From a virus: a stretch of 38,902 nucleotides of DNA. The notes under the pieces were generated by a model. That model did no database searches. It saw only the letters and a list, made by a program, of their open reading frames with translations, and was not told the origin of the DNA. The stretch covers positions 1 through 38,902 of IMG/VR virus record IMGVR_UViG_3300025526_000059. One strand, 5' to 3'. Shown here piece after piece: positions 1,146 through 34,016 of the stretch. Numbering within the stretch: the stretch's first letter is position 1; every line of letters begins with the position of its first letter. The translations under genes were made by a program, and so were the position numbers.

Positions 1146-1170
1146 TCTCGTTGTAGTAGGCGCCGCTCAT
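109..1170 (-). CDS. dcm: DNA (cytosine-5-)-methyltransferase, phage Dcm-like
   Basis: Predicted 353-aa cytosine-C5 DNA methyltransferase that would methylate phage and possibly host DNA, perhaps for protection from restriction. Visible motifs: motif I FFAGLGG (about residues 52-58), motif IV GSCPCQPFSAAG with catalytic Cys at about 81, the motif VI position as GEQVASKDG (about 117-125; EQV in place of the usual ENV, as is common in phage relatives), APHIRQR (about 155-161), and the C-terminal motif GNAINPWIAAEIL. Residues about 165-300 are low complexity with repeated AD/GNT segments, the target-recognition area. The ATG at 1168-1170 overlaps the primase stop as ATGA. It is the last leftward gene and converges with the 31-aa gene 12 bp away. 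A second long ORF is overprinted in the +1 frame (93-1145). Confidence 0.88.
   Translation of the reverse strand: MSGAYYNEIDPYAAQWLRNLIAAGHIPAGDVDERSIADVHPIDLVGYTQCHFFAGLGGWAYAARLAGWPDNKPLWTGSCPCQPFSAAGKRKGTADERHLWPEMRRLIAACRPVVVAGEQVASKDGRVWLAGVRTDLEDMAYGVWAADLCAAGVSAPHIRQRIWWLADTDSVVVQGQSPTGQQSFDESDNGIGRMANANGSLGQQGCTVDGGWNSRSDALEGSGSGGGGVFSGLGFTDSTRRESGQSTTETTRHRDSAISAGSTGVAQPARLGNTDEPRSQGWGERLIKCPHQWPPGTPNFAVLCTDGKARRFEPGSFPLAHGVSARVGRLRAYGNAINPWIAAEILGAYLDGP
349..381. repeat. Perfect 14-bp inverted repeat (hairpin) inside the 3' half of dcm
   Basis: Bases 349-362 and 368-381 are exact reverse complements around a 5-nt loop (tggca), the arms beginning GGTGTTGCCCAG. No T-tract follows on either strand. 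It is 253 bp inside the convergent end of the early and late transcription units. Confidence 0.6.
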
Positions 1171-3347
1171 TCCGGCCACCGCACGCCGTGGCCGATGAAG
1201 GTGGACCAGGCCGTGCGGCACTGTTCCAAAGTGGGCAGCTTGTAGACGTAGCCGGCACGGCTGGTCTTGGTGTGGAAAGTGCCAGGGCAGGCGTCGCGCA
1301 GCTGCTTGCCGATCGTGCGGTCGTCCGGCAGACGGCTGCGCACATGGCGTTCCTTGGCATAGCGGCGGAAGGCGTCGCGGAAACGGTTGCAGTCCACCGC
1401 CTCGGGCCATTCCTCGCCGAAATCGGACAGCAGGATCCGGCCTTCGCTGAGACAGTCCAGCCAGTATTGGTGGAACGGTTCGAGCGAGGCCAGCTTCTGG
1501 TCCAGCAGCGCGTCGGTTTCCGGCGCCCCGTTCAGATCGATCCCCGTAAGGTCGACATTCTGGAGATGGCTCAGCAGCAGGCGATAGCCGCCAGCTTCCA
1601 TGCCTTCCCGCATGGCCTTGAAGAATGCGCGGTCCTGCTTCCGGCCGTCGCCGACATCAAACACGGCGTACCGACGTTCATCGTGGCTGGCCGGGACCAG
1701 CCATTCCTCGTTGCCGATGATGATCACCCGGGTCCGGTTGTCGACCTTGTAGGTCTCCTTGCCCTTGTGCTCGATGACGTGCTCGGTGCCCGTGATCAGG
1801 TCTTTCAGCGTGCCCTCGGCCTGCTTGTCGCCGGACCAGAACGCTTCGTCGAGCGCGAACATCAGGCAGTTTTCCAGATGGCCGTTGAAATTGCCGATCA
1901 GGTAGCGGCGGTTCGATGTCAGCAGGAAATGGCCGCCCAGCAGCCGGCCGACGGTTTCGATGAAAGCGTTCTTGCCGACACCCTTGGCGCCGCGGAATAC
2001 CAGCGAGACCAGCGGTTTTTCCCACGGGCGCTGCACGATATGAGCGCAGTAGGCCAGCAGCCAGCGGAACAGCACGCGGTCGCCGCGGCAGACGTTCTGC
2101 AGACCATGCTCCAGCCAGGCATCCAGCGCGGCCTGCACTGGCGGCGGCACCGGTTCTTGCCCCCAGGGCTCGACCTGGAAGCCGCGCCACAGGTTGTAAA
2201 ACCGGTCGGGCACCGGCTGGCAGGGCGCGAACACGATGCCATCGTAGGATCGCCGGCCATCCCATTCCATCCATTCCTCGGTAACCGGCACGGTCTTGCG
2301 ACCAAGCTGGATCTTGTGCGAGGCGAACTTGCCGTTGAAGGCTGACATCGTCAGATGTTCCAACTTCCACATCCCCTTGGCATCGGTGGTTTCCCAAAGG
2401 ATGTGGCAGCCGCCGCCGGCGATGACGAAAGCGAATTCCCGGTTGATCTTGACGTAGGGGTGGATGCCGGTATCCGGTGTGTCGCCGTCATCTGTCGGCG
2501 CGGCAGGTGTGAAATCGGCTTCCGGTGCCGCAGTGCCCGGCGTCTCAAATCCGTACCGGTAGGCATGGGCCACCTTCTGGCCCAGGCGATCGTAAGACCA
2601 GCCGGGCGGGCAGCGCGGATTCCAGTGCTCGAACATGGCGTCGAGGCAATCCTGCTGCGACAGGCCGAAATCCTTGACCCGTGCGGCGACCTTGTAGGTA
2701 GTCTGGTCGCCACCCTGGCCCTTGATCGCTAATGGCGCGTCGGACTGCAGATACGCGGTTGCGCGAGCCAGAGCACGGGCACGGTCAACCCGAACTCCGT
2801 CCTGATCTGGCTGTTCACCACGTCGATCAGTGCCTGTGCCGAGACGGTCGACAAGCCATTCAGGAGCGGATGCCACGGGTAGATTTGCACCCACCACATA
2901 CCGTCCGGCGTCAACGGATGATCCAGGGCCGACAACGTAACCGCCGCGAGATCGAATATCGAGGCCGCTTCCGAGCACGTCGACACCCTGCCGAAGCGCA
3001 GCAGGTACGCGCAGGATAAGATGCCGACCACCTGTTGGTGTTTCCGTTGTACGGGTGTCAGGGATGTCATAACCGTCGAGCTCCAATGCCAGCAGGGAGG
3101 CCCGACCGTTCTTGCCTTCCTTGTTGTCTTCATCGATGACCAGCAGGGCTTCACTCTCGGCGAAACGGCCAGTGTAGATGCCAATGTTGGCATGGCCTTC
3201 GCCAAAGAATTCGGCTATCCGCGCCGGATCCCGGGTGGCCCGCTCCTTGAAGTGCATGCCCTTTGGCGGCTTCTTCTTGCCGGGCTGCAGCGGGAAAACG
3301 TAGAAACCATCCGCTGCCAAGGCCAACGCAGTTTCGAGAATACTCAT
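1167..3347 (-). CDS. Bifunctional prim-pol primase/replicative helicase
   Basis: Predicted 726-aa replication protein. The N-terminal part (about 1-170) is a Bif-prim/pol (AEP-type primase-polymerase) domain: FPLQPGKKKPPKG near 18-30, metal-binding acidic motif VIDEDN (about 70-75), GGRHL with His at about 109, and SRGGYVVGPGS (about 133-143). The C-terminal part (about 440-650) is a DUF5906/SF3-type ATPase: Walker A GAKGVGKN (about 453-460), Walker B LMFALDEA (about 495-502), then a VIIIGNEEW segment. It should prime and unwind phage DNA together with the PolA-type polymerase two genes upstream. The ATG at 3345-3347 overlaps the stop of the zinc-finger gene (ATGA), fixing the start in preference to longer frames. 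The 3' end overlaps dcm. Such fusions also occur in plasmid replication modules. Confidence 0.9.
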   Translation of the reverse strand: MSILETALALAADGFYVFPLQPGKKKPPKGMHFKERATRDPARIAEFFGEGHANIGIYTGRFAESEALLVIDEDNKEGKNGRASLLALELDGYDIPDTRTTETPTGGRHLILRVPAALRQGVDVLGSGLDIRSRGGYVVGPGSSVDAGRYVVGANLPVASAPEWLVDRLGTGTDRRGEQPDQDGVRVDRARALARATAYLQSDAPLAIKGQGGDQTTYKVAARVKDFGLSQQDCLDAMFEHWNPRCPPGWSYDRLGQKVAHAYRYGFETPGTAAPEADFTPAAPTDDGDTPDTGIHPYVKINREFAFVIAGGGCHILWETTDAKGMWKLEHLTMSAFNGKFASHKIQLGRKTVPVTEEWMEWDGRRSYDGIVFAPCQPVPDRFYNLWRGFQVEPWGQEPVPPPVQAALDAWLEHGLQNVCRGDRVLFRWLLAYCAHIVQRPWEKPLVSLVFRGAKGVGKNAFIETVGRLLGGHFLLTSNRRYLIGNFNGHLENCLMFALDEAFWSGDKQAEGTLKDLITGTEHVIEHKGKETYKVDNRTRVIIIGNEEWLVPASHDERRYAVFDVGDGRKQDRAFFKAMREGMEAGGYRLLLSHLQNVDLTGIDLNGAPETDALLDQKLASLEPFHQYWLDCLSEGRILLSDFGEEWPEAVDCNRFRDAFRRYAKERHVRSRLPDDRTIGKQLRDACPGTFHTKTSRAGYVYKLPTLEQCRTAWSTFIGHGVRWPE

Positions 3348-3547
3348 GCGCCTCGCTTCTGCCTGCGCTGCCAGTCGTCCCGACAGCCCGCGTCGCACCA
3401 GCGCCGTTCGCCTTCGACATCCTCGCCGCAGGACAGGCACATTCCGATGCCGGATGGTGGGTCTTTAGCAGATTGTTGCCTTTTAAGCAACGACGAACGC
3501 AGAAACAGGTCGGCGGTGTCGTTCGCCTGATCGATGATGTCAGCCAT
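3344..3547 (-). CDS. Small TraR/DksA-like zinc-finger protein
   Basis: A 67-aa protein starting MADIIDQAND. The C-terminal half carries CLSCG...RRWCDAGCRDDW, the four-cysteine zinc finger of TraR/DksA-type small phage proteins. Such proteins can bind RNA polymerase, but many phage copies of this size are uncharacterised. The start ATG (3545-3547) overlaps the last base of the polymerase stop (TAATG) and the 3' end overlaps the primase start, so it is translationally coupled in the replication operon. The gene contains a perfect 17-bp operator-like palindrome (3475-3491), the only perfect copy lying inside a coding region. Confidence 0.8.
   Translation of the reverse strand: MADIIDQANDTADLFLRSSLLKRQQSAKDPPSGIGMCLSCGEDVEGERRWCDAGCRDDWQRRQKRGA
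3475..3491. promoter_or_regulatory. Operator-like palindrome GTTGC-cttttaa-GCAAC
   Basis: Perfect copy of the 17-bp phage palindrome, inside the zinc-finger gene and about 130 bp upstream of the primase start on the leftward strand. Confidence 0.6.
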
Positions 3548-5661
3548 TATTTCCGATACCTCCGTCCTCTCCAGCCCGCGGCCACCACCGGCAGGCCGAC
3601 GGCCCAGTCCGGAATCGTGGCGCACTTGGCACAGAACTCTTTCAGGTCGCCGAAGCTTTCATCCACTTCGCCAGCGTTTTCGTCATGTGCGTGCAACACC
3701 GTGGGATAGCCGGCGGCATGACAGGTTTCCATGGCGAAGGCCAACAGGTCACGACTGATCGCCTGGTCGTTGTTTTCTACCAGCTTGCCGCCATAGGTCG
3801 AGATGCGCTGCCAGCGGCCATGCGCGTCGGGATCCGGGATAATCTTGTCCCGACCGCCCGCCGACTGGTCGATCTCGGTCATGTATGTGAGGCTGTCTTT
3901 CTCGTCGCCCCACGGCATCTGCAGCCGCATGATCTTCGGATACGGATAACAAAGCGTCCGGCCGCTTGGCAGCAGGCACCACAGGAAGCTGCCTTTCACC
4001 TTGTATTTGACCTGCCGGCCGGGTGCGCCGGCGGCAAAGGTCTTGCCCGGATTCAATACGGCACTGATCGCCGCCCGCTCGGTATCGCGCCAGAGCGAAA
4101 CGGTTTTCGGATGCTCGCCGCGCCACAGACCCTTGATCTCGTTGGCCTGTTCGTCGGGAATCTTGACCAGATACGTTTTGGCCATGGTCTGGAAAGCGCC
4201 AACGCCACCTTCGTAACCGCAGGCCAATTCCGGCACCTTGCCGAAGGTCTGGCGTTCTTCGTCGGTGATTTCTGCCACGGTCTTGTGCAGGATTTTGGCG
4301 GCCATGAGCTTGTAAATGTCCGCCCCGGTGCCGGCATCGAAATCACGGAACGCCTGCAGTTTCCATTCTTCACCGGCCAGCCAGGCGAGAACACGCCCTT
4401 CGATGTTGGAAAAGTCGGCTGTGATCAGGTGCTTTCCCGGTGCTGCCGTCAGCAGACCGCGCAGACAGGATGGCAGCACGTCCATGGGGCTGCCGTAAAA
4501 CAGGTCAATGTAGCGCGCCGCTTCGGCTGTCGGCATGCGCACCAGCGCATCCAGCACATCCTCGATCTCTGCCGGCTTCAGTTTCGGGCGAGGCAGATTC
4601 TGCAGCTGCACCCGACGACCAGCCCAGCGACCGGTCCGGGCGCCGTGATACTGGAACATACCGCGCAGCCGACCATCGGTACTGGCTGCTGAAATCATCG
4701 GGGTCAGCTTGGCGGTGCTACTACGACCCGCGCGCTGCCGCAGTTCTAGCGCCTCGCGCACGTCGGCTGGCAGGTCGTCGCGTTCCAGCAGGTCAGCCAC
4801 GTCAGCTTTGGCCAGCCCATCCTGGTTGAACCCACGCGTCCCCAGCCACTTCTTGATTCGGGCAACCTCGGTGCAGAAACCAACGAAGTTGCCGGTCACC
4901 TCGCGCATGCGAGCATTCAGCCGGTCCTGTTCGGCCTGCACGACGGCGATGGCAGCCTTCACGGCCGGCTGATCGACGAAGACGCCGCGATTATTGATCT
5001 GCTGGTCCAGCACCCAGAGGCGCTGTTCGGCATCGGAGAGCGGCATCAGCCGCTTCTCCAGCTCGCGCTCGACACGCACGTCCTGTCGGCAGTATTCACC
5101 CAGCTGGCGGCGCTTCTCCGGTTCGTCCCACCAGATGATCGTTCCGTCCGGCTTGATTTCACGCGGTCGGGCCATCTGCAGCATTAGCCGGCGGCCGACC
5201 ATGTCCTTTTGCTGCTGGATGCCGACGGCAGCAGCGGCCATTTCCAAGCTACCGGGCAGCGCCATGGCGTATGCCATCGCCATGGTGCAGCGGCATTGCT
5301 CGGGCTTCAGCGCCGGCCAGCCGTGGCGTGGCGCCATGATGTTGTTCCAAATGGCGAGCTCAAACGCCGCGTTGTGGATGACCACCAGGCCGCCGGCGGC
5401 GACATGCGCCAGCACGCGGTCAGTATCGTCGCTCCAGCCGGTGTTGAAATCCGCCGGTTCCAGCAGGCCGACATCTTCGTCTCCGAAGGCGAAAGCCATA
5501 CACCAGACGCCGGTATCGGGGTGCCGTGAGTAATTGTCGACACCAACATCGGCCAGTTCAACCGTACCGCGGGTCTCGAAATCGATATGAAGGATGACGC
5601 GCGGCGGGGGCGGTACCACCCAGCGACCGTCTAAACCCAGAATGGGAGTCTGGTCAGTCAT
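3547..5661 (-). CDS. polA: DNA polymerase I, family A (3'-5' exonuclease + polymerase)
   Basis: A 704-aa family A DNA polymerase that would replicate the phage genome. The exonuclease domain shows Exo I HIDFET (Asp27, Glu29), Exo II VIHNAAFELA (about 94-103) and Exo III YCRQD (about 190-194). The polymerase domain shows TGRWAG and LQNLPRP (about 343-359), motif A ADFSNIEGR with Asp at about 416, motif B FGKVPELACGY (about 473-483), and motif C HAHDEN (His659-Asp660-Glu661). All catalytic carboxylates are present. It resembles the short phage PolA type (Bcep22/BPP-1-like) and lacks a 5'-3' nuclease. The start MTDQTP is chosen because its ATG overlaps the previous stop by 8 nt. Confidence 0.92.
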   Translation of the reverse strand: MTDQTPILGLDGRWVVPPPPRVILHIDFETRGTVELADVGVDNYSRHPDTGVWCMAFAFGDEDVGLLEPADFNTGWSDDTDRVLAHVAAGGLVVIHNAAFELAIWNNIMAPRHGWPALKPEQCRCTMAMAYAMALPGSLEMAAAAVGIQQQKDMVGRRLMLQMARPREIKPDGTIIWWDEPEKRRQLGEYCRQDVRVERELEKRLMPLSDAEQRLWVLDQQINNRGVFVDQPAVKAAIAVVQAEQDRLNARMREVTGNFVGFCTEVARIKKWLGTRGFNQDGLAKADVADLLERDDLPADVREALELRQRAGRSSTAKLTPMISAASTDGRLRGMFQYHGARTGRWAGRRVQLQNLPRPKLKPAEIEDVLDALVRMPTAEAARYIDLFYGSPMDVLPSCLRGLLTAAPGKHLITADFSNIEGRVLAWLAGEEWKLQAFRDFDAGTGADIYKLMAAKILHKTVAEITDEERQTFGKVPELACGYEGGVGAFQTMAKTYLVKIPDEQANEIKGLWRGEHPKTVSLWRDTERAAISAVLNPGKTFAAGAPGRQVKYKVKGSFLWCLLPSGRTLCYPYPKIMRLQMPWGDEKDSLTYMTEIDQSAGGRDKIIPDPDAHGRWQRISTYGGKLVENNDQAISRDLLAFAMETCHAAGYPTVLHAHDENAGEVDESFGDLKEFCAKCATIPDWAVGLPVVAAGWRGRRYRK

Positions 5662-5956
5662 CGAACGGATCTGGGCTGGCGTTCGGCTCGGCAGTGGTAG
5701 CCAGCACCGCAACAGGCTTCGGCTCACGGATCCACGACGGCTTCTCGCGCTTCATGAACCCTTTGGCGATCGCCTTTTCGACGGCATCTTCCAGCGCCCA
5801 GTACATCGTTGCACCGGTGCCGAACTCGGCGACATCCGTGCCGTTGCCGATGTTCGCCTGCCAGCCATTATGGTTCTGGAACAGGTTGCGAATGTTGCAC
5901 TGGTGCTGGTTGACTAGCAGGATCAGGGCGTCAATGGGGTGCGGGGCATCGGTCAT
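5654..5956 (-). CDS. Conserved hypothetical phage protein, 100 aa
   Basis: Begins MTDAPHPIDALILLVNQHQ and contains NIRNLFQNHNGWQANIGNGTD. The C-terminal third is rich in Pro/Ala and ends in an acidic tail (PDPFDD), as in proteins that interact with replication machinery. It is predicted soluble with no membrane segment. The gene overlaps the deoxyribosyltransferase-like gene upstream (ATGA at 5953-5956) and the polymerase downstream (8 nt), so it belongs to the replication/nucleotide operon. Function unknown. The acidic tail resembles the C-terminal peptide of SSB-type proteins, but that is only a resemblance. Confidence 0.75.
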   Translation of the reverse strand: MTDAPHPIDALILLVNQHQCNIRNLFQNHNGWQANIGNGTDVAEFGTGATMYWALEDAVEKAIAKGFMKREKPSWIREPKPVAVLATTAEPNASPDPFDD

Positions 5957-6438: not shown

Positions 6439-7023
6439 TTAGTCGAAGACAGAGCCCGCTCCGGCGCCGCCAGCTGCAGCGCCAGCACCTTCGACCGGCT
6501 TGAAGTCGTCGGTCGGACGGCTGCGACCGCCGAGCGGATCGCCGTCGCGCGTCTTCTGGATGTTGTTCAGGCCGAAACCCGCACCCTTGTTGCCCTTCTT
6601 GTCGAAGGCATAGGCGTTGTAGGAAATCTTCGCGTAGCAGCCCGAGTAGAAGTGCTGCGGTTCGATGATGTCCATCACGTTGTGGTCGACGACACCGGGC
6701 TTGCCGTTCTTCGCCGCCTTCTTGAAGGTGATGAAGACGTCGTCGCCGTTCTCGTAGCCGGCCGGAATGACCTGCTTGCCGTCCTTCATCGACCACCGTT
6801 CCTTGCACTTGCGGAACGGATTGCGAAGATTCTCGGGCCAGTTCTTCTTGTCGGCGCCAAACTTCTTGACCAGGGCTTCCTCGGCATCCTTCTTCATCGA
6901 CGTGAAGTCGGTGTTGGCCGGGAAAATGCCGACGACGGAATATTCCATTTCGCCGGACAGGTCGTTCTTCTGCGCCTCGAAAACGTGAACATACGAGACG
7001 CGGCATTCATGGGTGACAGCCAT
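6439..7023 (-). CDS. Single-stranded DNA-binding protein, DUF2815 family
   Basis: A 194-aa protein with the DUF2815 (phage ssDNA-binding, T7 gp2.5-like role) pattern: RVSYVHVFEAQK near the N-terminus, KYSVVGIFP-like MEYSVVGIFPANTD, NPFRKCKERW, and GCYAKISYNAYAFDKKGNKG(A)GFGLNN near residues 128-156. It ends with a Gly/Ala-rich linker and a short acidic tip (SVFD). It would coat single-stranded DNA and help the polymerase and helicase. It lies 14 bp downstream of the DUF2800 nuclease gene; an SSB/nuclease pair like this is common in phage recombination-replication modules. The start ATG (7021-7023) follows gaaaggatacccgc, a good ribosome binding site. Confidence 0.85.
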   Translation of the reverse strand: MAVTHECRVSYVHVFEAQKNDLSGEMEYSVVGIFPANTDFTSMKKDAEEALVKKFGADKKNWPENLRNPFRKCKERWSMKDGKQVIPAGYENGDDVFITFKKAAKNGKPGVVDHNVMDIIEPQHFYSGCYAKISYNAYAFDKKGNKGAGFGLNNIQKTRDGDPLGGRSRPTDDFKPVEGAGAAAGGAGAGSVFD

Positions 7024-7037
7024 GCGGGTATCCTTTC

Positions 7038-8243
7038 TTACGGTTGGGGGATGGCGGCGAAGTCTTCCTTGGCCGACTTGGTGATCGCCGGCCGTTTGTC
7101 GTCCAGCGGTACGAGCGTGCTACCGCTCGATTCAGAAATGATCAGGCGCACCGGCGGCGCGTCGTCGCCCAGCAGTTCGCGGCGCTTCTCGGTGAGCTCG
7201 GCTTCCAGTTTCGGGAAAAAGGTTTTACCCAGATCCTTTTCCAGCTGGGCCGGCGACCGCAGGCTGCGCGGTTCGAAGATCGTGTCGTCGGGAATGGCAC
7301 GCGCCTGCAGCGCCTCGATCACGTCGCCTTCGCTGGCATAACTGCGGATCGCGCGCTTGGCGACCAGCTTGTGGCCAAAGGACGCACCACGACCAGCCTC
7401 GGCCTCGGCATAAGCGAACTCGTCCAGCGCCTTGATCCAGGCTTTCAGCGGTTCGCGGCTTTCCAGCGCCTTCTGCAGTTCCGCCGGGTCGTAGGGTTGT
7501 CCCTTGGTAAACTCCAGCTTGGCCATCTGCTGTGCGCGGTCTTTCAGGCCGGGACACAGGGCGGCTGCCGGACAGAACCGGCAGTGATTGCCCGGCACCA
7601 GCGGTGCGTCCGGTGCCTCGGTCGCCACGGCGAACGCCTTCAGGTCGGTCTTGAAATCCAGCAGGTCGATGGCGTCGATGTCGTAGTGACGGATCGGGCC
7701 GTCCGCGTGTTCACAACGTGGCTGGCAGATTTCCATGCGCACGGTCTTGGCCGGCAGGTTCAGCGCCAGCAGGGCGCCGAGCGCGTAATACTTCAGCTGG
7801 CTGTTTTCGACCACGTTCACCGGGACGCCGGCGCCATGCTTGTAGTCGCGCACGATCAACAGGCCCTTGGATGCCCGCCAGCGCACATGGTCGGCGGTGC
7901 CAAAGCAGCCCGGATGTACGGCGGACAGATCGAAACGCTGCTCGATGAAGTCCTGGTCCTCGGCTTCGAAATCGGCCCAGATATGCCGAACATAGGTATC
8001 GACGGCATCGGCCATCTCGCGGTCAACCTTGAAGGTCCGACCGTCGAGACTGACTTCCAGGCCGACATATTTTCGCGGGTCTGTACGCTTGGCCAGGCAT
8101 TCGGCGGCAAGCGCATGCGCGTCGCTGCCTTCCTCGGCATAGGCGCTGGTGGTCTTGGCAACGCCCTGCGACAGCCGGACGGAACCGGGACAGGCGCTCC
8201 AGCGATACATGCTGCTGGCGCCGATACGGGAATGTGCGCTCAC
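7038..8243 (-). CDS. DUF2800 PD-(D/E)XK nuclease, Cas4/RecB-like
   Basis: A 401-aa nuclease of the phage DUF2800 group. Landmarks: SACPGS (Cys18), EEGSDAHALA (about 37-46), GTADHV with Asp118, RDYKHG giving the D-x-K pair Asp133/Lys135, SQLKYYALG (Gln149), and a cysteine cluster CRFCPAAALCPG (Cys221, Cys224, Cys230) that with Cys18 could ligate an iron-sulfur cluster as in Cas4/AddB. It probably resects DNA ends for phage recombination or packaging intermediates. It is coupled to the GapR-like gene upstream (ATGA at 8240-8243) and to the SSB gene downstream. Confidence 0.87.
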   Translation of the reverse strand: MSAHSRIGASSMYRWSACPGSVRLSQGVAKTTSAYAEEGSDAHALAAECLAKRTDPRKYVGLEVSLDGRTFKVDREMADAVDTYVRHIWADFEAEDQDFIEQRFDLSAVHPGCFGTADHVRWRASKGLLIVRDYKHGAGVPVNVVENSQLKYYALGALLALNLPAKTVRMEICQPRCEHADGPIRHYDIDAIDLLDFKTDLKAFAVATEAPDAPLVPGNHCRFCPAAALCPGLKDRAQQMAKLEFTKGQPYDPAELQKALESREPLKAWIKALDEFAYAEAEAGRGASFGHKLVAKRAIRSYASEGDVIEALQARAIPDDTIFEPRSLRSPAQLEKDLGKTFFPKLEAELTEKRRELLGDDAPPVRLIISESSGSTLVPLDDKRPAITKSAKEDFAAIPQP

Positions 8244-8503
8244 CCGAACACCTCCATATAGCGTTCGAGAAGTGCTTGCTGTTCGGCCAGATCGGCGCTG
8301 TCCAGCTTGCGCAGGCGCACGACCTGGCGAACGATCTTGGGGTCGAAACCGTGGGCTTTCACTTCGGCATAGATTTCCCTGATATCGTCAGAGAGCCCCT
8401 TCTTTTCTTCCTCCAGCCGCTCGATACGAGCGACGAGGGATCGAAGTTGATCGCCGGCGACACCGCCGGAATTATGGCCGGGTTTGGCAGGCGTATCGGT
8501 CAT
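8240..8503 (-). CDS. GapR-like DNA-binding protein (DUF2312)
   Basis: An 87-aa protein with the DUF2312 pattern: a flexible head (MTDTPAKPGHNSGG), a long helix LRSLVARIERLEEEKKGL, then IREIYAEVKAHGFDPKIVRQVVRLRK and a C-terminal helix. Chromosomal GapR of Caulobacter and relatives belongs to this family and binds overtwisted DNA as a coiled-coil oligomer ahead of polymerases, stimulating type II topoisomerases. A phage copy may support replication or transcription of its own DNA, or interfere with host GapR. The family is essentially alphaproteobacterial, one of the main clues to the host. It overlaps both neighbours by ATGA. Confidence 0.85.
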   Translation of the reverse strand: MTDTPAKPGHNSGGVAGDQLRSLVARIERLEEEKKGLSDDIREIYAEVKAHGFDPKIVRQVVRLRKLDSADLAEQQALLERYMEVFG

Positions 8504-12171: not shown

Positions 12172-12510
12172 TCACACCACCAGCCGGGTTTTCAGCCCGT
12201 ACTTCTCAGATGTGGTGTTGAACTTGCGCTGCACCACGTCAGCCAGATCAAGACCCAGCGACATGGCAATCAGGTCAACGCAAATGACCACATCAGCCAG
12301 TTCGTCGGCCGCGTCTTCCAGCGAAGCGCGCGAACCGCGAATGCCAAGTCGCTCACGCTCCAGCTTTTTCAGGACGTTGCAGGCTTCGCCAACTTCACCG
12401 GCAAGCTCGTTGCCGCGGTAGGAGAGCGTCAGTTGATTGCCGACGTCCCATTCCTGCTGTCGAACCTCGTTGGCGATCCGCAGGTCGGCGAAATTGATGT
12501 GCTTTTTCAT
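12172..12510 (-). CDS. MazG-like nucleotide pyrophosphohydrolase
   Basis: A 112-aa all-helical protein with the MazG signature: GNELAGEVGEACNVLKKLERE (about 33-53) followed by LEDAADELADVVICVDLIA (about 64-82), giving the ExxE...ExxD/DExxD metal-binding acids. It would convert (d)NTPs to (d)NMPs and pyrophosphate, so with the HD hydrolase and DUF5664 it forms a dNTP-remodelling cassette. The ATG overlaps the pentapeptide gene's stop (ATGA at 12507-12510). In Z-genome phages the MazG-like MazZ partners DatZ and PurZ; no PurZ is seen here. Confidence 0.85.
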   Translation of the reverse strand: MKKHINFADLRIANEVRQQEWDVGNQLTLSYRGNELAGEVGEACNVLKKLERERLGIRGSRASLEDAADELADVVICVDLIAMSLGLDLADVVQRKFNTTSEKYGLKTRLVV

Positions 12511-13289
12511 ACCGAAATCCTCTCGGCACGCTCGCGTAGATCCGCCATCGCTTTTTCGTTGCTGCAGTAGAAATCCGGCACCGGCAGGTCCGGAGCCGAA
12601 GCCGCGTATATCAGCGCACCGGCCGCTGCGGACCCGATGGCGGCTTCAAGATCGTAACCTGCCTTACCGGCCAGGTGGATGTGCCAGCCTGCACGACAAT
12701 GGGTCGTTTCGCAGACATGCCACCCGCCCATTTCCAGTTCGCCGCCTGCTTCGATGGCGGCAAGGACTGCCTTGTCGATATCCGGAACAACCGGGATCGG
12801 GGGCAGGACGGCGCCACTCAGGACGGCGCCACTCAGGTCGGCGCTCCTCAGGACGGCGCCACTCAGGTCGGCGCCACTCAGGACGGCGCTCCTCAGGTCG
12901 GCGCCACTCAGGACGGCGCGGCTGAGGTCGGCGCTCCTCAGGTCGGCGCGGCTGAGGTCGGCGCGGCTGAGGTCGGCGCTCCTCAGGACGGCGCCACTCA
13001 GGTCGGCGCCACTCAGGACGGCGCTCCTCAGGTCGGCGCCACTCAGGACGGCGCGGCTGAGGTCGGCGCTCCTCAGGACGGCGCCACTCAGGTCGGCGCC
13101 ACTCAGGACGGCGCTCCTCAGGTCGGCGCCACTCAGGTCGGCCTTGGCCGCGATAGCCATTTTCACCGCCGCGCCGAGCTTCACGCCCTCGCTCGCAGAT
13201 TCGAATTTGGCTTCCAGATCACATTCGAAGACCGGATTGCCGGTCCAGCGGCTGCGAATGGTGAACTTGAACGTTTTCACAGTTGACAT
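12507..13289 (-). CDS. Pentapeptide-repeat protein
   Basis: A 260-aa protein. Residues 1-49 form a distinct head (MSTVKTFKFTIRSRWTG). Residues about 50-159 are about 22 tandem A(D/V)LXX pentapeptides, which would build a right-handed quadrilateral beta helix. The C-terminal domain contains GGWHVCETTHCRAGW and SNEKAMADLRERAE. Some pentapeptide proteins (Qnr, MfpA) mimic DNA and shield gyrase, but the C-terminal domain here is that of common phage pentapeptide proteins of unknown role. The repeats are almost identical at DNA level (12805-13141), so copy number may drift. ATG at 13287-13289 lies just downstream of an operator-like site, making it the first gene after cro. Confidence 0.88.
   Translation of the reverse strand: MSTVKTFKFTIRSRWTGNPVFECDLEAKFESASEGVKLGAAVKMAIAAKADLSGADLRSAVLSGADLSGAVLRSADLSRAVLSGADLRSAVLSGADLSGAVLRSADLSRADLSRADLRSADLSRAVLSGADLRSAVLSGADLSGAVLRSADLSGAVLSGAVLPPIPVVPDIDKAVLAAIEAGGELEMGGWHVCETTHCRAGWHIHLAGKAGYDLEAAIGSAAAGALIYAASAPDLPVPDFYCSNEKAMADLRERAERISV
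12805..13141. repeat. Nearly identical 15-bp tandem repeats within the pentapeptide gene
   Basis: About 22 copies of 15-bp units, mainly of three types: GGCGCCACTCAGGAC, GGCGCTCCTCAGGTC and GGCGCGGCTGAGGTC, differing at few sites. A higher-order block encoding ADLRS-AVLSG-ADLSG-AVLRS-ADLS occurs three times, a sign of recent internal duplication. Confidence 0.85.
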
Positions 13290-13300
13290 TTTCTCGCTCC

Positions 13301-13317
13301 GTTGTGGTTTTAGCAAC
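13301..13317. promoter_or_regulatory. Operator-like palindrome GTTGT-ggtttta-GCAAC
   Basis: One mismatch in the left half. It lies between the Cro-like gene and the pentapeptide gene, 12 bp upstream of the latter's start. Confidence 0.6.
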
Positions 13318-13324
13318 ACTCAAA

Positions 13325-13839: not shown

Positions 13840-14508
13840 ATGGCAAAGGGGAAAGCGCGGGCGAAAGTCGAGCGCACCAGCCGCAAAGCGAGAGACGAAG
13901 AAGCCAAGATTGGCGAGGTCGACAAGACCTGGTTTGAAAGCCGGGCGCGGGATATGGGAATCAATTTCTCCCGAATCGCTGAAATGCTCGGTATGAACCG
14001 ATCGATCGTCAGCCGGATGATGTCCGGCGAGCGCGAAGTGTCGAATCAGGAAGCCAACGAGCTCGCCACCATCCTGCAGGTCTCGTTTGACGATGTGGTC
14101 GCGCATCTTGGCGTGAAGCCCAAAACAGACCCGAATGACTTCCTACCGGTTGTCGGCGCCATATCGGCGGACGGCATCATTCACCCGAAGCTGCCCCGCG
14201 GGGCGTTCAAATCGACACGGCGCATCCCTGGTTTACCGCATGACTGTTCCGGCCTCTGGGTGGACGCTCCAGGATCCTGGCTTGACGGTTCTGTGCTGTA
14301 TTACGTCACCGGCTTTACGGTGGAACCGAACGCGGTAGGCCGCGCCGCGGTGATCGGGCTGAAGGATGGCCGGAAATTCGTTCGCATCCTCATTCACGGC
14401 ACCAGATCGAACCGCTGGCGCACACAGCCGCTTAACGGCCCGCTGGACCCGCAGGATTACGAGGTTGCCTGGGCAACGCCAGTCCGGGCTATCGTCCTGC
14501 CGACCTAA
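13840..14508 (+). CDS. HTH repressor with degenerate S24/LexA-like C-terminal domain
   Basis: A 222-aa regulator, probably the lysogeny repressor. After a basic head (MAKGKARAKVERTSRKAR) it has an XRE-type HTH (about 31-90; INFSRIAEMLGMNRSIVSRMM holds the two recognition helices). The C-terminal part (about 100-222) runs LPVVGAISADG, SGLWVDAPGSWLDGSVLYYV and KFVRILIHG...WATPVRAIVLP, resembling the S24/LexA fold, but I see no clear catalytic Ser-Met/Lys pair, so self-cleavage is doubtful. The start follows GGGGGA. The frame stays open upstream to an ATG at 13690 with its own ribosome binding site (AAGGTGG), giving a possible 272-aa form. Its likely targets are the GTTGC-N7-GCAAC sites. Confidence 0.82.
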   Translation: MAKGKARAKVERTSRKARDEEAKIGEVDKTWFESRARDMGINFSRIAEMLGMNRSIVSRMMSGEREVSNQEANELATILQVSFDDVVAHLGVKPKTDPNDFLPVVGAISADGIIHPKLPRGAFKSTRRIPGLPHDCSGLWVDAPGSWLDGSVLYYVTGFTVEPNAVGRAAVIGLKDGRKFVRILIHGTRSNRWRTQPLNGPLDPQDYEVAWATPVRAIVLPT

Positions 14509-14790
14509 TCTGTTGCCGTTCTAGTTAAAAATCCCGGCAATCAGCAGTTATTCTAGTGTGTTCTAGTGTGCCAGGTCGCAACTGGAACCGTAAGCCTCTG
14601 TAATTGCAAGGCGTTCTAGTTACACCAGTCATTCTAGTGTGAATCTGCGGTAGGCTACGGAAAAACCAATAGGGTGAGGGCGCCGCGCGGCCCGCTATTA
14701 GATTATATAAGGTATATAGTATTCTTTATTCTCTATAGAATAACTAGAACACTAGAAAACATAATTGAAAATAAGGGCTTAAAATACCCT

Positions 14791-14807
14791 GTTGTGAAAA
14801 TTGCAAC
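14791..14807. promoter_or_regulatory. Operator-like palindrome GTTGT-gaaaatt-GCAAC in the candidate origin
   Basis: One mismatch in the left half. The right half overlaps the third inverted TTCTAGT-type repeat, so an operator protein and an origin protein could compete here. Confidence 0.5.
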
Positions 14808-14825
14808 TAGAACACACTAGAACGG

Positions 14826-14853
14826 AAAAGCCCTGCCTCGCGGCAGGGCTTTT
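14826..14853. terminator. Bidirectional rho-independent terminator
   Basis: Stem GCCCTGCC (14830-14837), loop tcgc, stem GGCAGGGC (14842-14849), flanked by AAAA and TTTT, so it can work on both strands. It would end the repressor transcript rightward and the 14889-15849 operon leftward. Confidence 0.85.
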
Positions 14854-14888
14854 GGATTCTGATCAGGTTTCAAGCGGATAAAACCGCT

Positions 14889-15269
14889 TCATTGCTGTTG
14901 GAACGCCGCGCCACTTTTTACTGCTGCCAGACCGGCGCGCAGTAAGGCCAGATATCGATCCGACACATATGCGTGTGTTGTGGCTTTTCCGAAATGAAAG
15001 GTATTCAGGCTGCCGCCGATGACGGCGCCGAATCCGGGCACGAATTTACGGTTTCGATCGGCAACCCAATGGCCGAGAAACGCGCCCACTTTGGCCGTGC
15101 AGGCGTCCACCCACTCGCAAACCATGGCGCCCGGCAACCGGATGGTGATGTGAAACCCCCGGCCGTCGGGTCGGGCTTCAAAATCGGCGCCATACTCCGC
15201 GGCAAGTGCCCGCATTTGGCTGACCAGGGTTTTACGGGCTGCAGCTCTTGTCATTTCGTGGGGCAACAT
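14889..15269 (-). CDS. Hypothetical phage protein, 126 aa
   Basis: Soluble-looking protein with LVSQMRALAAEYGADFEARPDGRGFHITIRLPG, DACTAKVGAFLGHWVADRNRKF, and TFHFGKATTHAYVSDRYLALLRAGL. No catalytic motif is recognised. It is the last gene of a leftward four-gene operon beginning at 15849 and ends before the bidirectional terminator. The ATG at 15267-15269 follows GGAGG at a rather long spacing; a second ATG five codons on is possible. As it borders the candidate origin, a replication or copy-control role is conceivable but unsupported. Confidence 0.6.
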   Translation of the reverse strand: MLPHEMTRAAARKTLVSQMRALAAEYGADFEARPDGRGFHITIRLPGAMVCEWVDACTAKVGAFLGHWVADRNRKFVPGFGAVIGGSLNTFHFGKATTHAYVSDRYLALLRAGLAAVKSGAAFQQQ

Positions 15270-15946: not shown

Positions 15947-16492
15947 ATGCAGACAGACGCCCAGACACCCTTGCGAGGGAAAGCCGCCATTCGAGATAAG
16001 ATATTGAACGCCTTCCAGATTTATGCGGAAGGCGGCACGATAAAGCGCGCGGTCGGCGAGCAGAAAATATCAAACCTGCAGTTTTATCAGGGCTTGGACG
16101 CGCATCAGGATTTGAAGGCGCTCTACTATCAGATTCAGGCGTATCGCGCTGACATGATGGCAGACGAGGCTTACGAGCTCAGCACCGATACGAGCATAAC
16201 ACCCCAACAAGCGCGCGAACGGGCTTCTATCCGTCTGAAAATTGCCGGCCTGTATGACCGCAGCCGATTTGGCGAGAAGGTCGACATAACCATGACTGGC
16301 CAGGTGGACATCACAGCTGCGCTTTTGGAAGCGCGGAACCGATCCGGGCGACCTGTTAGCGACCTAGTTTCAACTGCCGTGCCGCAAGTGCTTGATGTAT
16401 TGGCCCTGCCGGTACGCGAAGCAACAGATAAGGAAACTGTTGCGCCACCGAATGAGGCGGCATTTCAAATGCAGAGCCCCTTCGATGACTGA
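15947..16492 (+). CDS. Terminase small subunit (probable)
   Basis: A 181-aa helical protein directly before the terminase large subunit. The N-terminal part (AAIRDKILNAFQIYAEGGTIKRAV) looks like an HTH for recognising the packaging site, followed by LDAHQDLKALYYQIQAYRADMMADEAYEL and QQARERASIRLKIAGLYD, the terminase small-subunit type oligomerisation helices seen in relatives. It would bind pac/cos DNA and recruit the large subunit. The first rightward late gene, only 20 bp from an operator-like site. No Shine-Dalgarno sequence is seen before the ATG, so its mRNA may be leaderless or weakly initiated. Confidence 0.75.
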   Translation: MQTDAQTPLRGKAAIRDKILNAFQIYAEGGTIKRAVGEQKISNLQFYQGLDAHQDLKALYYQIQAYRADMMADEAYELSTDTSITPQQARERASIRLKIAGLYDRSRFGEKVDITMTGQVDITAALLEARNRSGRPVSDLVSTAVPQVLDVLALPVREATDKETVAPPNEAAFQMQSPFDD

Positions 16493-32876: not shown

Positions 32877-34016
32877 ATGACGGTCAACACCACCGATAAT
32901 CGCGTTTCCTACACCGGCAACGGCACGATCCCGTCGGTCCCGATCCCGTTCTATTTCCTGGAAGACGAAGACCTGGTCGTCGTCGAAGTGGTTATCGCCA
33001 CCGGCGTTGAAACGGTGCTGTTGCTGACAACCGATTATTCGGTGACCGGTGCCGGCGATCCGGTTGGTGGTACGGTTACCGGGGTGGCGACGTTGCCCAG
33101 CACGAAACGCTGGGAAATTTACCGCGATCCCGACATGACACAGGAAGTCGAGCATGTGGATAACGATCCGCTGCCGGCTGCCTCAATCGATCAGCCGCTG
33201 GACAAGCTGACCATGATCGCCCAGCGCACGCGCGAACTGACAGAACGTTCGCTGCGGCAGCCGGATGGCGATTCCGACACGATCGGGTCAATTCCGGCAC
33301 AGGTTGCCCGTGCCTCCATGTATCTGGCCTTCGATGCGGATGGCGATCCCATCGCGGCAACCGCGCCGGAAGGCGGGAATGTCGTGTCGGCGTTCATGGC
33401 TACGGTCCTGGACGACGCCAATGCTGCCGCGGCGCGTACAACGCTGGGCGCTCTTGGTGCCGGTGATGATGGCACTGTACTGACCGGATTGCTGAAGACC
33501 GGACTACATTCCGTTTTCGTACCGGCGCGCGCAATGATCCCGGCGAGCACCAGCGGCTGCGCCGATGTAGCCCAGGCGGAAAGCACCACCAACAAGGTCA
33601 ATGACGAGTTTCTTGCTTTCGATGCTGCCAGCATTGAATACGCAGGCTTTCATTTCCGCGCCCCGAAATCGGCCGACGAGACGGCCGGCTTCACAGTCGA
33701 GTTCGAATGGAGTGAGACGGCCGGTGCTTCGTCGCACGATTGCGTGTGGCAGGTCGAGATGCAGGCGCAGGGTGACGGCGACACGATCGACAGTGCCTGG
33801 GGCACGGCAGTCACAGTCACGGATACCGGAACATCCGGCACACGCCGCAAGGCTGTGACCGCCACGGTGACCCTTGGTGGTAGCTGGGCAGAAGGCGATG
33901 TCGTCCATGTCCGCCTGAGTCGGAAGGCCACCGATGCCGCCGACACGCTCAATGTCGATGCCAGGCTGCACGGGGTGCTGCTCGGCATGACGTTAGCCGC
34001 CGGCAACGACGCCTAG
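32877..34016 (+). CDS. Tail fibre protein with T7-type N-terminal domain
   Basis: A 379-aa protein. The N-terminal 140 residues (NRVSYTGNGTIPSVPIPFYF, LLLTTDYSVTGAGDPVGGTV, LPSTKRWEIYRDPDMTQ, QPLDKLTMIAQRTRELTERS) are the T7 gp17-type tail-attachment domain. Residues about 180-210 contain AAAARTTLGALGAGDDG, a shaft repeat. The rest is a Thr/Ala-rich beta region that may be the receptor-binding head or a joint for the lectin-like protein downstream. It starts a tail-fibre unit behind an operator-like site. Confidence 0.84.
   Translation: MTVNTTDNRVSYTGNGTIPSVPIPFYFLEDEDLVVVEVVIATGVETVLLLTTDYSVTGAGDPVGGTVTGVATLPSTKRWEIYRDPDMTQEVEHVDNDPLPAASIDQPLDKLTMIAQRTRELTERSLRQPDGDSDTIGSIPAQVARASMYLAFDADGDPIAATAPEGGNVVSAFMATVLDDANAAAARTTLGALGAGDDGTVLTGLLKTGLHSVFVPARAMIPASTSGCADVAQAESTTNKVNDEFLAFDAASIEYAGFHFRAPKSADETAGFTVEFEWSETAGASSHDCVWQVEMQAQGDGDTIDSAWGTAVTVTDTGTSGTRRKAVTATVTLGGSWAEGDVVHVRLSRKATDAADTLNVDARLHGVLLGMTLAAGNDA

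Follow-up and report, generated by a model that had tools for sequence, protein, structure and literature searches.

We analysed a 38,902-nucleotide stretch of viral DNA (IMG/VR record IMGVR_UViG_3300025526_000059, positions 1 to 38,902; hereafter the window), which contains an array of short repeats, or iterons, with the word TTCTAGT, a candidate origin of phage DNA replication. The array, its core, the genes beside it and the replication genes referred to below are placed as follows, with ORF standing for open reading frame:

14519–14638, plus strand: left iteron half, with five TTCTAGT at 14519, 14551, 14561, 14614 and 14632
14743–14822, minus strand: right iteron half, with four TTCTAGT (read as ACTAGAA) at 14743, 14751, 14806 and 14816, linked to the left half by a perfect 17-bp inverted repeat
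14696–14775, no strand: AT-rich core, candidate DNA-unwinding element, containing the 60 bp with the window's highest AT content
14826–14853, no strand: terminator-like palindrome, rich in GC and bounded by A and T runs, from the sequence and the inverted-repeat listing
1167–3440, minus strand: PrimPol-helicase (PF09250 plus DUF5906/PF19263), proposed initiator
3547–5727, minus strand: family A DNA polymerase (PolA), in the replication block
6439–7023, minus strand: Enc34-type single-stranded DNA-binding protein (SSB)
13849–14508, plus strand: Cro/C1-type helix-turn-helix (HTH) regulator, directly upstream of the array and a rival candidate for binding it
14889–15269, minus strand: small ORF of no assigned family, converging on the array from the right
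15947–16492, plus strand: terminase small subunit (TerS)

TTCTAGT occurs nine times as an exact copy in the window, and all nine copies fall within 304 bp (14519–14822), with none outside, in the order of five plus followed by four minus, just as an earlier note on this DNA had counted them. By chance 0.83 copies would be expected in the window, and the maximum among 100 shuffles was 4. The tetranucleotide CTAG, described in the same note as rare and strikingly clustered, is indeed depleted (18 occurrences as compared with 45 expected), and half of the 18 fall in the array. The cluster score of TTCTAGT reached a log10 p of about −24, whereas the strongest cluster in 30 simulated genomes scored −7.3, indicating that the array is not due to chance. 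The two repeated spacings of 63 bp that had been pointed out (14551 to 14614 and 14743 to 14806) are right, and a perfect 17-bp inverted repeat, TTCTAGTGTGTTCTAGT, pairs positions 14551–14567 of the left half with 14806–14822 of the right half. The mirror arrangement of the halves about an AT-rich segment also holds, although the strand order +++++---- is weak evidence by itself (p about 0.03).

By its position between the end of the HTH gene at 14508 and the minus-strand ORF ending at 14889, the segment is non-coding, as had been proposed, and is flanked by convergent gene ends; it thus combines several short repeats, clustered beyond chance, in non-coding DNA, as an iteron origin does. The 60 bp from 14713 are 80% AT, the highest AT content of any 60 bp in the window, and this core would provide the adjoining AT-rich unwinding element of such an origin, a feature that also appears in the relatives described below. 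Two further signals that the earlier note had placed in the segment fared less well: the palindrome at 14826–14853 has the form of a bidirectional terminator, with A and T runs about a GC-rich stem, but was not listed by the terminator scan, and no support was found for an operator-like site. No sigma-70-like promoter was found in the array region, and the window gave no hits in Rfam or tRNA scans.

At the scale of the genome, the array sits where the minus-strand replication block (PrimPol-DUF5906, PolA, Enc34-type SSB, DUF2800 exonuclease and SNF2 helicase) and the plus-strand terminase and portal genes (from 15947) part. A GapR-like DNA-binding protein (PF10073, E 1.6e-30) is also encoded within the replication block (8240–8503, minus strand). 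The same virus was present, with 100% identity over the compared stretches, in the alphaproteobacterial metagenome-assembled genome CROMO_A_67, where it is split into two contigs at the pentapeptide-repeat gene. Beyond both window ends lies a 60-bp direct repeat that corresponds to the 3′ end of a tRNA-Leu(CAA) gene and marks both attachment sites, and an ORF resembling a tyrosine recombinase (integrase-like), identified by eye, spans the right end of the window (L247 13047–13194, L286 5807–7201). The window thus covers an integrated prophage except for about 1.4 kb, and the phage is a prophage of an alphaproteobacterium, integrated at tRNA-Leu(CAA).

When viral contigs were searched for TTCTAGT, six stretches were recovered, of which only contig L005 carried the nine-site array and the other five carried a single pair. 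L005 is the same virus, identical to the window outside the pentapeptide repeats, and is thus uninformative about conservation of the array. The pentapeptide-repeat gene itself (12507–13319) is made of in-frame tandem repeats that differ in the same virus between samples (L005), and assemblies break there.

Relatives were gathered by searching with the terminase large subunit (TerL) and were then scanned for clustered words. Strong clusters of other words were found at the same genomic place in ten of them (L084, L071, L068, L080, L030, L013, L014, L015, L089 and L022), and the recurring arrays lie mostly upstream of the terminase genes, usually between these and the early genes. The words included GACCCAA (L084 and L048), ATCCGAA (L071), TGCCGAA (L068), ACCCACA (L080), GCTAACA (L030), CTACCAA (L013), CTGTTAC (L015), ATTTTGG (L089) and GTGTAAC (L022), and the copies were often direct pairs at 8–11 bp, arranged in opposed halves about an AT-rich stretch. 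The earlier note had named absent or unordered repeats in close relatives as a sign against an origin; in many relatives the order is kept, while the word itself is swapped. In 68 scored arrays of the sister group defined below, taking as the core the 60 bp of highest AT content inside the array span, copies to the left of the core were 122 minus and 20 plus, and those to the right were 405 plus and 60 minus; these cores rank in the top 0.04% of their own locus for AT content (median). The window array has the same polarity, with ACTAGAA in the right half.

Other repeats were noted in the same survey. Four phages with a window-type PrimPol (L189 14546–14813, L191 14679–15076, L192 12960–13202 and L234 14073–14339) carry TGCGACC(A) pairs about 11–13 bp apart downstream of the PrimPol gene, which may represent a second layout of the same origin. 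In L014, the named phage DSL-LC05, ACCCAGTGGGTCA-type repeats lie upstream of the terminase genes (33446–33965). The classical DnaA box is TTATCCACA; the iteron word of L056 (9111–9420), L053 and L070 is TTGTCCACA, one letter off that box, and a perfect TTATCCACA is also present in L056. Reading TTGTCCACA as a DnaA box was set aside because the likeness is not common to the other words.

The swapping of words allowed them to be compared with the proteins of the same phages. The sister group comprises TerL relatives of the L080 type, and a search with the L080-type PrimPol-like helicase, added to the earlier loci, gave 86 loci. Word classes and classes of the wing peptide in the PrimPol winged helix were fixed by eye on the first 16 or so loci, so that the later loci constitute the cleaner test. 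A word was scored when it had at least four copies and at least two more than the next word, which left 71 of the 86 loci scorable; of the 15 others, 13 were LLKSR-type loci whose counts were low, and the remaining two were contigs giving no array (L153 and L176). Word and wing peptide occurred in one fixed pairing at all 71 scorable loci: LLKSR with GAC[CT]CACA (n=24), RLKSR with TGTCCACA (n=22), RVASGD with TGACCCAA (n=21), RVGT with words of the CCTAG type (n=3) and RLASRQHTT with GCCAACA (n=1).

On the PrimPol tree the word changed 3 times, the minimum, as compared with a mean of 33 for shuffled labels, while on the other trees the changes were close to those of shuffled labels (TerL, 25 against 29; TerS, 26 against 31; PolA, 15 against 19.5). 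Linkage would be expected to tie the word to TerS, the gene nearest to the array, rather than to PrimPol. Within PrimPol, the wing columns alone gave 3 changes and residues 1–250 gave 17. In agreement with this, the PrimPols of L138 and L144, whose words differ, have an identity of 93% across the first 700 columns and of 69% in the winged helix. The TGACCCAA and TGTCCACA groups are fully separated by only 10 columns, 8 of them at residues 726–748, which map in and just after the strand-wing-strand of the sister-group PrimPol of L084, in a model that is poor overall (predicted local distance difference test score, pLDDT, 50) and usable in its winged-helix part alone. As the word switches in step with the PrimPol winged helix, PrimPol is indicated as the protein that reads it.

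The predicted structure of the window PrimPol (mean pLDDT 88.5) ends in a winged helix, at about residues 624–703 of the 726-residue form starting at 3347, with helices at 653–666 and 676–686 and strands at 691–695 and 699–703. In a fold search its closest matches among solved structures were the helicase region of NrS-1 (E 7.7e-16), AsfvPrimPol, PriRep1 and the SaPI5 primase-helicase. According to the model, the protein has all the parts of an initiator that joins a PrimPol to a D5-like helicase, namely the Prim-Pol domain, DUF5906 and a C-terminal winged helix. By homology with the sister group, we infer that TTCTAGT is paired with the window PrimPol.

The position of the array, its opposed halves and AT core, its recurrence and the covariation of word and PrimPol support the proposal of the earlier note that this is a candidate origin, and the segment is very probably the start site of DNA replication of the phage. 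It is likely, moreover, that the origin is bidirectional, with opposed iteron halves about a melting element, and is bound by the PrimPol-helicase through its C-terminal winged helix. The PrimPol-helicase (1167–3440) would bind the TTCTAGT iterons by this domain and assemble on both opposed halves, and the assembly would open the AT-rich core and load two helicase rings facing in opposite directions, after which priming would fall to the PrimPol domain and extension to the phage PolA and SSB.

Several observations weigh against this interpretation. The PrimPol gene is 11 kb away from the array, and the covariation belongs to a sister PrimPol group that matches the window PrimPol in part, at about 24% identity; the covariation was looked for in the window's own PrimPol group, where arrays are too few or irregular to be scored. 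L012, which is the nearest named phage when TerL and PolA are compared, gave no convincing array in the word-cluster scan. The GC skew turns near the array, yet gene orientation turns there too. Finally, 11 bp separate the end of the HTH gene from the array, and such a gene adjoins the array both in the window and in several relatives.

This last point underlies the strongest alternative, in which the repeats are operators of the Cro/C1-type regulator, controlling transcription or tuning the origin. HTH homologues, whose recognition helices differ, as do the words, precede the arrays of L020, L089, L029 and L040; a search for relatives of the window HTH protein matched the same virus only. Operators would be expected at the promoter of the regulator or of its target operon, but TTCTAGT is absent upstream of both the HTH gene and the leftward operon, where an autoregulator should have its sites, and the array lies between convergent gene ends without a sigma-70-like promoter. 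In addition, no HTH gene was seen beside the arrays in the mapped regions of L080, L084, L049 and L030 (ORF maps read by eye), and there the word follows PrimPol, so that we consider the operator explanation unlikely. Less probable still is that the initiator or replisome organiser acting on the repeats comes from the host or is a small phage protein that escaped recognition, and that the PrimPol link of the relatives is not valid here: arrays of the window clade are heterogeneous and several window ORFs are without a family, but no such protein was seen next to the arrays across relatives, and the PrimPol covariation is complete wherever it could be scored. The least probable reading is a site for partition (parS-like) or packaging (pac) whose nearness to the terminase genes is fortuitous, since, in spite of the 1.1 kb that separate the array from TerS and the annotation of an L012 gene in that region as a possible streptomycin-operon (StrR) type regulator, the word in relatives tracks neither TerS nor TerL, no ParA or ParB family was found among the window proteins scanned, and an integrated prophage does not need partition.

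With the PrimPol-helicase preferred as the protein that binds the iterons, a broader reading appears reasonably probable, if less so than the origin itself: in a widespread group of environmental tailed phages, a few residues of the PrimPol wing and its surroundings would determine the word of the iteron origin, and origin and wing would switch jointly while the remaining genome recombines freely, amounting to a lock-and-key origin code that can be read from sequence. An origin and its initiator can in this way be assigned to uncultured phages from sequence alone, and the iterons and winged-helix domains found paired in nature could serve to decode how self-loading primase-helicases recognise DNA. 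A further suggestion is that phages sharing a word could compete for, or cross-use, one another's initiator.

Among known systems, the origins of phage-inducible chromosomal islands (PICI) always contain two sets of iterons, one on either side of an AT-rich region (PMC6092414), and the Rep protein of Staphylococcus aureus pathogenicity islands (SaPI) reads its iterons with a C-terminal domain (PMC7581432). The window array shares the two sets about an AT-rich region and an element-specific word, and the window protein, near the SaPI5 primase-helicase and PriRep1 in the fold search, resembles Rep as a D5-like helicase with a C-terminal DNA-binding domain. In contrast, the PICI/SaPI origin lies directly downstream of rep, whereas the window array is 11 kb from the PrimPol gene; these islands are satellites that use the capsid of a helper, whereas the window phage carries its own terminase and portal genes; and the window helicase is fused to an archaeo-eukaryotic-type Prim-Pol, with PolA and SSB phage-encoded. 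A full tailed phage with an array far from its initiator gene is thus not a member of the PICI/SaPI family.

NrS-1 PrimPol, the best structural match, likewise joins a Prim-Pol to a ring-shaped helicase region, but the reports on it describe no more than two 8-nt recognition sites and do not mention an iteron array (PMC7102993, PMC8718748). At the origin of the staphylococcal cassette SCCmec, the C-terminal domain of the D5-type helicase Cch2 binds its direct repeats (PMC7581432), as the window protein may do; that origin differs in having three 5-nt iterons and a separate primase-polymerase, and does not belong to a phage (PMC7581432). The alpha protein of phage P4 is a single multidomain primase-helicase that binds the origin repeats by a winged helix (PMC4234260), an arrangement that probably applies to the window protein, while its primase is of the Toprim type and there is no evidence of common repeat words. 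Taken together, the reading that best fits these comparisons is that the array would work like the origins of PICI/SaPI Rep and of P4.
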